From contig NZ_CP107930.1 of the NCBI RefSeq assembly GCF_036021035.1, forward strand, positions 372,001 to 436,000: DNA of 64,000 nt, in the 5' to 3' direction. Position 1 is the stretch's first letter. Every line of letters begins with the position of its first letter. The translations under genes and the position numbers were made by a program. This DNA comes from Kineococcus sp. NBC_00420. Lineage in GTDB: Bacteria > Actinomycetota > Actinomycetes > Actinomycetales > Kineococcaceae. This document shows, in pieces, positions 27,123 to 32,408 of the stretch. A model generated the notes under the pieces. That model did not search any database. It was given only the letters and a program-made list of their open reading frames with translations, and was not told the DNA's origin.

Positions 27123-28373
27123 TCAAGCTGCTGCCGGGGCGGCGGCGTGTTCTGCGGGCTCGGGGCAGGCGGCGTGATGCGACCAGGCAGTTGCCTCGTC
27201 GTAGAGGGTTCCCGTCTTCAGACACCCGTGCAGGACGCCGACCAGGCGGTTGGCGAGCTGACGCAACGCGGCGTGATGGCCGACTCCACGACTGCGGAGC
27301 TGGTCGTAGTAGGACCGCGCGCCCGGTGAGGCGACCATCGCCGCGAAGGCCTGACGTCCGAGAGCGTCTACGAGCCGGTCGTTGTGGACGTAGCGGGCCA
27401 CGACCACCTTCTTCTTGCCCGACTGGCGGGTGATCGGGCTGGTCCCGGCGTAGTTCTTGCGGGTGCGGGCATCGCCGTAGCGGACGGAGTCGTCACCGAA
27501 CTCGGCAAGCACCCAGGCGCTGAGGACAACACCGAGACCGGGTTGGCTGAGGTAGATCTCAGCGGCCGGGTGCTCACCGAAATGCGCCTGCACCTGCTCG
27601 GCCATCGCAACGATCTGCACCTGCAACGTGCTCAGGATCGCCACTTGGGCGCGGACCGTGGCGGCGTAGGCCGCGGTCACCGCAACGGATTGACCGAGGT
27701 GTTCGGTGCGCGACGCCGCACGAATCGCCTGCGTCTTGTCATCCACGTGGTGACGCCGGGCACGTTTGAGGGCAGCGGTGATCTGCGTGCTACTCAACCG
27801 CGCCGCGGCCGCCGGGTCAGGAGCCTTGCCGAGTAACTCCAACGCCTCGGCCCCGGCGAGATCAGGAAATGCTTGCAGGGCAGCAGGAAAGAAGTCCAGC
27901 AGCACCTGCCGCAGTCGTTGGACGTGGCGAGTGCGCTCCCAGATCAGCGTCTTGTGCGCCCGCGTGACCACCTTGATCGCTGCGGCCTGGTCGCTGTCCC
28001 CGGCGACTATGCGCAGTTGGTGGCCATCCGTGCGGACCATGTCAGCCAACGCGTGCGCATCACCGGCGTCACTCTTGGCACCGGAAACGCTGCCGCGTTC
28101 TCGATACCTCGCCGCCTGCAACGGGTTGATCGCGTACACGCGATACCCCGAAGCGATCAGTGCCTGCACCCACGGACCGCGGTCGGTCTCGATCCCTACC
28201 ATGACCTGGTCGGGATCGGCGTCAGGGCCGGCGTGTTGGGCCAGTATCGCGTGCAGTCGGGCGACCCCGGCGATGCCTTCCTCGAGTCTGGCCTTCGCCA
28301 GCCGGCGGCCGGTTTCATCCTGGATCTCCACGTCGTGGTGGTCCTCGGCCCAGTCGTCTCCGACGAACAACAT
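27123..28373 (-). CDS. IS110-family transposase (DEDD recombinase)
   Basis: A 416-residue recombinase. The RuvC-like N-terminal domain carries the acidic residues of the DEDD site in VGDDWAEDHHDV, VGIETDRG and KSDAGDAHALADMVR. The C-terminal transposase_20 domain shows LSQPGLGVVLSAWVLAEFG and the serine-containing YAGTSPITRQSGKKK. IS110 recombinases are guided by a bridge RNA encoded in the element's non-coding end. ATG 28373 begins MLFVGDDWAEDHH. The gene appears intact. Confidence 0.92.
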   Translation of the reverse strand: MLFVGDDWAEDHHDVEIQDETGRRLAKARLEEGIAGVARLHAILAQHAGPDADPDQVMVGIETDRGPWVQALIASGYRVYAINPLQAARYRERGSVSGAKSDAGDAHALADMVRTDGHQLRIVAGDSDQAAAIKVVTRAHKTLIWERTRHVQRLRQVLLDFFPAALQAFPDLAGAEALELLGKAPDPAAAARLSSTQITAALKRARRHHVDDKTQAIRAASRTEHLGQSVAVTAAYAATVRAQVAILSTLQVQIVAMAEQVQAHFGEHPAAEIYLSQPGLGVVLSAWVLAEFGDDSVRYGDARTRKNYAGTSPITRQSGKKKVVVARYVHNDRLVDALGRQAFAAMVASPGARSYYDQLRSRGVGHHAALRQLANRLVGVLHGCLKTGTLYDEATAWSHHAACPEPAEHAAAPAAA

Positions 28374-30882: not shown

Positions 30883-32166
30883 CTACGGGGTCAGCCGGTG
30901 CAGGTCACGCGGGAAGAGCGTGCTGCGCCGGACGTTGTCCAGACCAGCCAACCGCGCGACCCACCGCTCCAACCCCAGCGCGAACCCACCGTGCGGGGGC
31001 ATGCCGTGAGCGAAGGTGTCCAGGTAGGTGCGGTAGTCGTCTGGGTCTTGCCCGCGAGCCCTCAACGCGGTGACGTAGTCGGCGTGCTCGTGCAGGCGCT
31101 GCCCGCCGGTCACCAGTTCCAACCCCCGGAAGAGCAGGTCGAAGGAGTTCGTCCACCGCGGGTCGTCAGGCTGAGGGTGGGTGTAGAACGGCCGCTTGGC
31201 CGAGGGGTAGCCCTCCACAGCGAGAAAGTCGCTGTCGTGCTCACGCAGCGCCCACCGGCTCAGCTCCCGCTCGTGCTCGGGTGCGAGGTCCGGCTCGTCC
31301 GGGTCGGCACCGATCAGGCGCAGCGCGTCGCGGAAGTGGATGAGCGGGATCTTTTCCGGAACGACCGGCACCTGCACCCCGGCCAGCCCGCAGGCCTCGC
31401 CTCCTCCGGCCACGGCGGTGACCATCCCGGCCAGGACCTCACGCAGCACGGCCAGGACGTCGCGGTGGTCGGTGATGAAGCCCAGCTCGACGTCCAGGGA
31501 GGTGTACTGAGCCAGGTGGCGGACGGTGTCGTGCGGTTCAGCGCGAAACACCGGGCCGGTCTCATAGACCCGCTCGAAGACCCCGACCAGCATCTACTTG
31601 TAGAACTGCGGGGACTGGGCCAGGTAGGCGGGACGGCCGAAGTAGTCCACGGCGAACACGTTCGCGCCGGACTCGGTAGCGGTGGCGGTGAACTTCGGGG
31701 TGGCGACCTCAGTGAACCCGCCCGCGTCCAGCGTGGTGCGGAAGCCACGCAAGGAGGCCGCCGCCACCTCCCACACCGCTCGACGTTCCCGGTGGCGCCA
31801 GGTGAGGGGGGCGTGGTCCAGCAGGGTCGGCAGCGCCGCGTCCAGGTGCGGGCGCCACAGCTCGACCGGCGAGGTCGCGGCGGGTGCGCTGAGAGCAGTG
31901 ATGGTGGGGCCGGTGACCTCCACCCCGCCGGGCGCCTTGGTGTTGGCGGTAGCTGTCCCGGTGATGCGGACGACGGTCTCCTCGGGCAAGCCGTCGAGGG
32001 CGGCCCGGGTCGCTTCGTCGCTCACCACGATCTGGGCCAGGCCGCTGCGGTCGCGCAGGACGAGGAAGGTCACCGCGGCCAGTCGCCGACGTCGGTGAAT
32101 CCAGCCTTCAAGGCGGACGGGTTCGCCGATGTGCGCGGCAAGGGTGGTGTTGAGCGTGCGTTTCAT
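30883..32166 (-). pseudogene. aspS: Archaeal-type aspartyl-tRNA synthetase interrupted by one amber codon
   Basis: A class II Asp-tRNA synthetase of the short, archaeal/non-discriminating type, 427 codons. The N-terminal OB-fold anticodon-binding domain is seen (VRLEGWIHRRRRLAAVTFLV). The catalytic domain has AQSPQFYK, motif 2 in GPVFRAEPHD and motif 3 in GFALGLERWVARL. ATG 32166 has an exceptional ribosome site, GGAGGTGATC. The frame is broken only by TAG at 31594-31596, where the family normally has Gln (QFYKQ-M), so one C-to-T change of CAG would suffice. Downstream sequence stays intact. It may be a recent pseudogene, a sequencing error or, less likely, a read-through gene. A T-box-like leader precedes it. 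Confidence 0.85.
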
Positions 32167-32322
32167 GATCACCTCCAGGTGGTTCCTACCCCGGAGGTGT
32201 GGGCGATCGGGTTGCTCGCGGTGCCACCACACCTTCACCGGTCCGTACTGGACCGGCCTCGTCGGTCCGATGTCGGGGACCACCCGTCGCGGCTCGGGGG
32301 TCGTCACGCCCGTCAACGCCGC
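32167..32322 (-). promoter_or_regulatory. Candidate translational T-box leader of the aspS-like gene
   Basis: The minus-strand leader contains the T-box core TGGCACCGCGAGC (32214-32226). Its TGGC would pair with a tRNA acceptor end GCCA, i.e. discriminator G, as in tRNA-Asp. Upstream a hairpin GGTCC-CCGACATC-GGACC (32264-32281) shows GAC, an Asp codon, in its loop at 32272-32274, as expected of a short Stem I specifier. A perfect 7-bp hairpin lies between (32238-32256). Downstream CCTCC (32193-32197) can sequester the GGAGG ribosome site (32172-32176), so control would be on translation. Length and layout resemble actinobacterial ileS T-boxes. Confidence 0.6.
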
Positions 32323-32328
32323 ACCACC

Positions 32329-32334
32329 ACTATA
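32329..32334 (-). promoter_or_regulatory. -10 element for the T-box/aspS transcript
   Basis: TATAGT on the minus strand, about 160 bases before the aspS start, would begin transcription just before the structured leader. A convincing -35 is not seen. Confidence 0.4.
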
Positions 32335-32408
32335 GGGACCGGGCGGTGGTCTCGTCGAGACCAACTTCGGCGCCGCGTCCACGGCGCATCCCCACCGCAG
32401 GGAACGAC

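Follow-up and report, generated by a model that had tools for sequence, protein, structure and literature searches.

What is the function of the leader that precedes an aspartyl-tRNA synthetase (AspRS) gene in Kineococcus sp. NBC_00420, and to which tRNA would it respond? The leader occupies positions 32322-32167 on the minus strand of the 64,000-nucleotide stretch of DNA analysed here (the window), and the original prediction described it as a translational T-box with specificity for tRNA-Asp. Our results support this assignment, to which we give a probability of about 0.92, and the leader belongs to a widespread actinobacterial T-box family that is missed by Rfam.

Read on the minus strand, the leader has the layout of a translational T-box with a GAC specifier and a UGGC bulge. 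A promoter-like site, TCGACG and TATAGT separated by 18 nt, lies upstream (32329-32358, minus strand) and may drive its transcription; in a consensus scan it matched 9 of 12 positions (mean for shuffled sequences 0.0), and in an alignment the paralogous locus L002 of the same genome reads TACAGT at the -10 position. Stem I (32289-32322) is short, with an outer stem GCGGC/GCCGC, an internal loop GTTGAC/CCGA that may be K-turn-like, and a specifier loop closed by GGG/CCC. The predicted short hairpin presenting GAC in an 8-base loop is present at 32311-32298, where the loop CGTGACGA is flanked by GGG and CCC, and the specifier itself, an Asp codon, occupies 32303-32305. A probable Stem II region (32263-32284), suggested by its position and by partial likeness among leaders, is followed at the Stem III position by the perfect middle hairpin that had also been predicted, with 8 bp formed by GCCGGTCC and GGACCGGT around the loop AGTAC (32257-32237). 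The antisequestrator (32195-32234) consists of the strands AGGTGTGG and CCACACCT, a 7-nt bulge and an upper stem GCGA/TCGC; it carries the T-box core TGGCACCGCG at 32226-32217 and the bulge TGGCACC at 32220-32226, the TGGC of which is complementary to the tRNA 3' end GCCA. In the minimum-energy fold of the window leader, a sequestrator hairpin (32170-32199) is formed by CACCTCCGGG (32199-32190) and CCTGGAGGTG (32179-32170), and it covers the ribosome site with the Shine-Dalgarno sequence GGAGG (32172-32176), 5 nt upstream of the ATG at 32166. Antisequestrator and sequestrator are mutually exclusive, as the CACCUCC strand is common to both. A scan of the leader region found no terminator-like site.

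The leaders of related genes were collected by a scan with the C-terminal piece of the AspRS, so that relatives were picked by protein and not by leader. The T-box core was found upstream of the gene in all of the best 80 relatives that were kept out of at least 518, in the form TGGNACCGCG in 67 cases and TGGCACAGCG in the other 13. Together with the window and its paralogue they make up a set of 82 leaders, 81 of which have the bulge UGGC (UGGU in L076); UGGCACA is read in 13. At the specifier position, 81 of the 82 leaders read GAC, a count that is not blind because the motifs used required NNT[GA]AC or GAAGAC; a stricter motif missed L033 and L075. The remaining leader, L020 from Nocardia suismassiliense, has AAC at the specifier position in Stem I upstream of 2326, possibly a natural switch from Asp to Asn or an error. 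Two forms of Stem I occur: 55 leaders have the short form, in which simple pairing gives an apical specifier loop of 7-9 nt (non-canonical closing pairs are possible), and 27 have a GAAGAC-type form. In some of the latter there is a part resembling AGAGAG...GGTTGCTG, which we take to be the elbow-binding motif.

The original prediction had named a covariance-model search and an alignment of homologues as checks, and both were carried out. Model R2 was built from 26 GAAGAC-type loci, without the window or any short-Stem-I leader, yet it matched the window at 32262-32194 with 81.2 bits (E 3.8e-16, covariance-model E-values being from a shortened calibration), far above the runner-up in the 64 kb at 15.1 bits. 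In a set of 23 loci it scored all 20 T-box loci at 55.6 bits or more and gave no match in the three loci that lack a T-box (L003, L086, L087), with stray matches not exceeding 17.2 bits. The middle hairpin and the antisequestrator covary strongly, so that neither of the two outcomes named beforehand as refuting the original prediction occurred. Alignment A1 comprised 81 sequences, 75 of them distinct, L002 having been excluded as its leader is identical to that of the window; in the middle hairpin and the antisequestrator, 94.0% of cells were paired, 11 pairs showed double changes, and the covariation score was 0.294 versus 0.106 (sd 0.007) for shuffled and at most 0.090 for slid alignments. 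All eight pairs of the middle hairpin changed on both sides among the 75 distinct sequences. Alignment A2 comprised the GAAGAC-type loci except L076, whose middle hairpin is very long (26 of 27); here the score was 0.376 versus 0.149 shuffled and at most 0.079 slid, and the count of double-change pairs was equalled in 20 of 500 shuffles. The lower stem of the antisequestrator covaries in both alignments; three of the four pairs of the upper stem are invariant and thus uninformative on covariation.

The two hairpins at the ends of the leader were assessed separately. At the proposed register of the short Stem I, the five loop-adjacent pairs were paired in 174 of 205 cells among 41 distinct leaders, and in at most 127 of 205 when slid by -3 to +2, the loop position having been picked beforehand by best stem. 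The suggestion that a CCTCC strand could mask GGAGG also held: CACCTCCGGG can pair with CCTGGAGGTG, and over the 82 leaders the sequestrator strand folded with its own partner at a mean of -16.2 kcal/mol versus -14.7 (sd 0.18) with permuted partners. None of 2000 permutations was as good, although kinship of the sequences was uncontrolled, and the start codons in this test, assigned by a script, are uncertain in L055, L082 and L084; pairing is weak in a few leaders (L031, L072, L082). The folding energy of the window leader as a single sequence is ordinary (z -1.25, 25 of 200 shuffles being equally good), hence the support is comparative and not thermodynamic.

From this architecture, and by analogy with established T-box work on tRNA binding, charging readout and direction of switching, a mode of action may be proposed. 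When no uncharged tRNA is available, the CACCUCC strand would pair with the ribosome site GGAGGUG and translation would be off. Uncharged tRNA-Asp would bind at two places, the short Stem I, where its anticodon GUC would pair with the GAC specifier, and the bulge, where UGGC would pair with its 3' end GCCA. With the antisequestrator stabilised in this way, the ribosome site would become accessible and AspRS would be made, while charged tRNA would cause no switch-on. The leader would thus very probably turn on a spare AspRS as uncharged tRNA-Asp accumulates.

Additional versions of the element were found in the genus of genome G495, which we infer to be Streptomyces. Model R1 matched 41 of 343 genomes of the genus sample at E 1e-4, and of 30 loci that were read, 22 have GAC leaders before AspRS and 7 have UCC leaders before SerRS; L182 is a GAC leader without a recognisable gene. 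Specifier and gene therefore agree in 29 of 29 assignable loci, and here too the specifier motif, GAA(GAC|TCC), was not blind, while the open pattern GAANNN gives the same specifier codons. The one AspRS of this genus that was compared with the window type shares about 37% identity with it. The bulge is UGGC in 21 of the 30 loci, UGGU in 6 and UGGA in 3 (L168, L177 and L183, all GAC); UGGA also occurs in L187, L189, L190 and L191. The UGGA and UGGU loci are exceptions to the match of bulge and discriminator seen in the window genome, and UGGA would be expected not to pair with a discriminator G. In six genomes with two leaders (G724, G924, G653, G839, G775 and G878) one leader precedes SerRS and the other AspRS. 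At L186-L191 a SerRS and an AspRS gene, each with its own T-box, lie about 3 kb apart, and the surroundings differ between several genomes; the pair may form a mobile or island module. All eight Ser-T-box genomes tested have two or three SerRS genes, and G620, which has no Ser T-box among its matches, has one. No dedicated tRNA gene was found beside the Streptomyces-type loci in any of nine stretches.

With both versions at hand, the assignment to tRNA-Asp can be weighed against other readings. The discriminator G that had been predicted from TGGC is indeed carried by the tRNA-Asp(GUC) of the host, and it is also carried by its tRNA-Asn(GUU) (the genome gave 48 tRNA matches, 41 of them in the stretches that were read and the other 7 being 82-93 nt long). 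UGGC consequently fits both tRNAs, and it is the GAC specifier that selects Asp. Sensing of tRNA-Asn, or of both tRNAs, has to be considered because of this shared discriminator and because the enzyme family is annotated as aspartate--tRNA(Asn) ligase. The closest solved relative of the window-type enzyme is the non-discriminating AspRS2 of T. thermophilus (1n9w/3kfu), so the window-type AspRS may charge tRNA-Asn as well, and no AsnRS scored above the cut-off in any of 27 genomes, five lower matches being AspRS genes, so that formation of Asp-tRNA(Asn) presumably falls to an AspRS. As none of these 27 genomes, with or without a T-box, has an AsnRS match above the cut-off, the absence of AsnRS was rejected as an explanation for the T-box. 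The AAC specifier of L020 would also suit an Asn sensor. Against this, the specifier of 81 of the 82 leaders is GAC and not AAC, and both leaders found on bacterial-type AspRS genes likewise carry GAC in the Stem I loop, which makes a response to tRNA-Asn very improbable.

It could also be argued that the leader is a T-box look-alike, a structured RNA that answers a metabolite or a protein. In favour of this, tRNA binding is a prediction, and the Rfam T-box model RF00230 gave no match to the leader even at E 10 and none in the window or its genome; it likewise scored below the gathering cut-off, with no match, in all of 15 loci. However, the specifier, the UGGN bulge, the antisequestrator and the identity of the synthetase agree with one another as the T-box mechanism demands, in the Asp and the Ser versions alike, and we consider a look-alike exceedingly improbable. 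We therefore retain the T-box reading with tRNA-Asp as the predicted ligand, in line with GAC and UGGC each in 81 of 82 leaders, the AspRS genes downstream, and UCC before SerRS in 7 of 7 loci.

The gene behind the leader (30883-32166, minus strand) only partly corresponds to what had been expected. It is of the aspS type, more precisely an archaeal-type AspRS gene with NF003483 and TIGR00458 as the top family matches and PF00152 and PF01336 as the Pfam domains; however, an in-frame TAG (31596-31594) breaks it into two open stretches, 190 and 236 residues long, the family matches being the same for both. The paralogue L002 is intact, shares 94% DNA identity with the window gene and scores 527.2 bits against an NF003483 cut-off of 353. 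All 161 bases compared agree between the two leaders, as do 69 of 73 just upstream. Upstream of the promoter region of the paralogue, L002:551-684 contains tandem near-repeats (CACCGCGGGATGACCGTG..., spaced by about 29 bp). A bacterial-type AspRS is encoded in the same genome as well. The window copy may thus be a decayed duplicate, that is, a T-box before a pseudogene without a present local function, which would be compatible with the T-box reading itself. The TAG codon, the intact paralogue with its identical leader and an IS110-type transposase ORF 2.5 kb past the end of the gene speak for decay, and we are inclined to favour it, with some reservation: most differences between the two copies are synonymous (58 of the nucleotide differences fall in codons that are unchanged and 31 in changed ones), so the break would be recent or a sequencing error, and the TAG is directly followed by an ATG, so two pieces could be made. 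Since the window gene is broken, functional enzyme under this control would most likely be produced from the intact paralogue, which has the same leader. Rfam also gave a match to Ms_AS-4, narrowly above the cut-off, at 27465-27546, antisense inside the IS110-type transposase ORF.

Model R1 gave matches of at least 43 bits in 24 of the 345 genomes of the class sample. In 21 of them the T-box stands before an archaeal-type AspRS (the gene appears interrupted in G300), in G399 and G575 before a bacterial-type AspRS, and in G495 before SerRS. At least two of the 24 genomes (G438 and G557) correspond to the R1 training loci L027 and L075, and their scores are therefore not independent. A bacterial-type AspRS is present in all 24, and for the most part the T-box therefore governs an extra synthetase. 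L105 and L106 are Asp T-boxes before bacterial-type AspRS genes, in two genomes without an archaeal-type match. NF003483 matched 34 genomes of the class sample at E 1e-60, 13 of them without an adjacent R1 match, and 12 of these 13, which form one family, lack the bacterial-type AspRS; the exception, G522, combines a low-scoring NF003483 match with a bacterial-type AspRS and no T-box. In the phylum sample of 296 genomes, strong matches were confined to G000 and G204, and of 11 genomes matched by NF003483, 9 (L086-L094) show no T-box core upstream. The weak R1 matches in this sample, which make up 19 of its 22 matches and score 27.5-35.9 bits, were set aside: of ten whose DNA was read, seven (L096-L101, L104) carry TGG[TC]ACC[GA]CG upstream of other genes and resemble classical T-boxes, and three (L095, L102, L103) show no convincing T-box. 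G433 and G495:C1 (L109, L112) in the class and genus samples were rejected because the bulge core is missing. As the controlled gene is a second AspRS in most genomes examined, the switch would most likely provide a backup against failure of the main AspRS or of the aspartate supply, a role to which the second-copy status and the patchy distribution point.

A search of the literature turned up no Asp or Ser T-box described for Actinobacteria, the entries of TBDB themselves lying outside the search, in agreement with the initial view that actinobacterial T-boxes are mainly ileS elements and that an Asp one would be new. In the accessible parts of these sources, ileS T-boxes are reported for Actinobacteria (Seliverstov 2005, PMC1262725; Wels 2008, PMC2494555), translational classes are treated in a review (PMC7583486) and, via ileS examples, in PMC10482949, and TBDB (PMC7778990) ran its own class II model on actinobacterial genomes and names no actinobacterial Asp entries. 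The Class III/IV ileS T-boxes of Nocardia farcinica, Mycobacterium and Actinomyces share with the present family the masking of the ribosome site, the UGGN bulge and a short Stem I whose apical loop presents the specifier (55 of 82 leaders, that of the window included). They differ in that they respond to Ile and not to Asp (and Ser); in addition, our leaders control a second synthetase, one gene family has both short and GAAGAC-type forms of Stem I, and the apical loop is 7-9 nt by pairing versus the 5-6 nt given for Class III in the accessible text of PMC10482949. With the Class I T-boxes of Firmicutes (RF00230, some of them Asp), the family shares the UGGN bulge, the control of aminoacyl-tRNA synthetases and, in 27 of 82 leaders, the GAAGAC specifier region, whereas the window leader has a ribosome-site sequestrator in place of a terminator-like site and goes undetected by RF00230. 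A T-box on one of several gene copies has been described in Firmicutes, e.g. for aspS of C. acetobutylicum (PMC2494555, accessible part). Second, inhibitor-insensitive synthetase genes are known from antibiotic producers, such as SerRS2 in albomycin resistance (PMC9437257, accessible part), and an extra SerRS beside the housekeeping one was likewise found in 8 of 8 Ser-T-box genomes tested. For the T-box-controlled genes, unlike in SerRS2-type systems, a neighbouring biosynthetic cluster and a part in resistance would be hypotheses. Our search found no account of T-box control over a second, inhibitor-insensitive synthetase gene in Actinobacteria.

The family thus adds Asp and Ser to actinobacterial T-boxes, which the accessible literature otherwise describes as ileS elements. 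As GAAGAC-type and ultrashort forms of Stem I stand before related genes, the shortening of Stem I can be compared directly, and the Asp and Ser versions represent natural specifier swaps. It is tempting to regard these leaders as a dispersed actinobacterial family of translational T-boxes, for Asp and Ser at least, that act as inducible sensors of synthetase failure, a tentative idea about which we remain rather more doubtful than convinced. If it were true, an antibiotic of a rival that blocks the main enzyme would lead to uncharged tRNA, and a distant spare synthetase, insensitive to the inhibitor, would be switched on. The link to second synthetases connects tRNA charging, in a way that can be tested, with a backup enzyme that is possibly antibiotic-tolerant.
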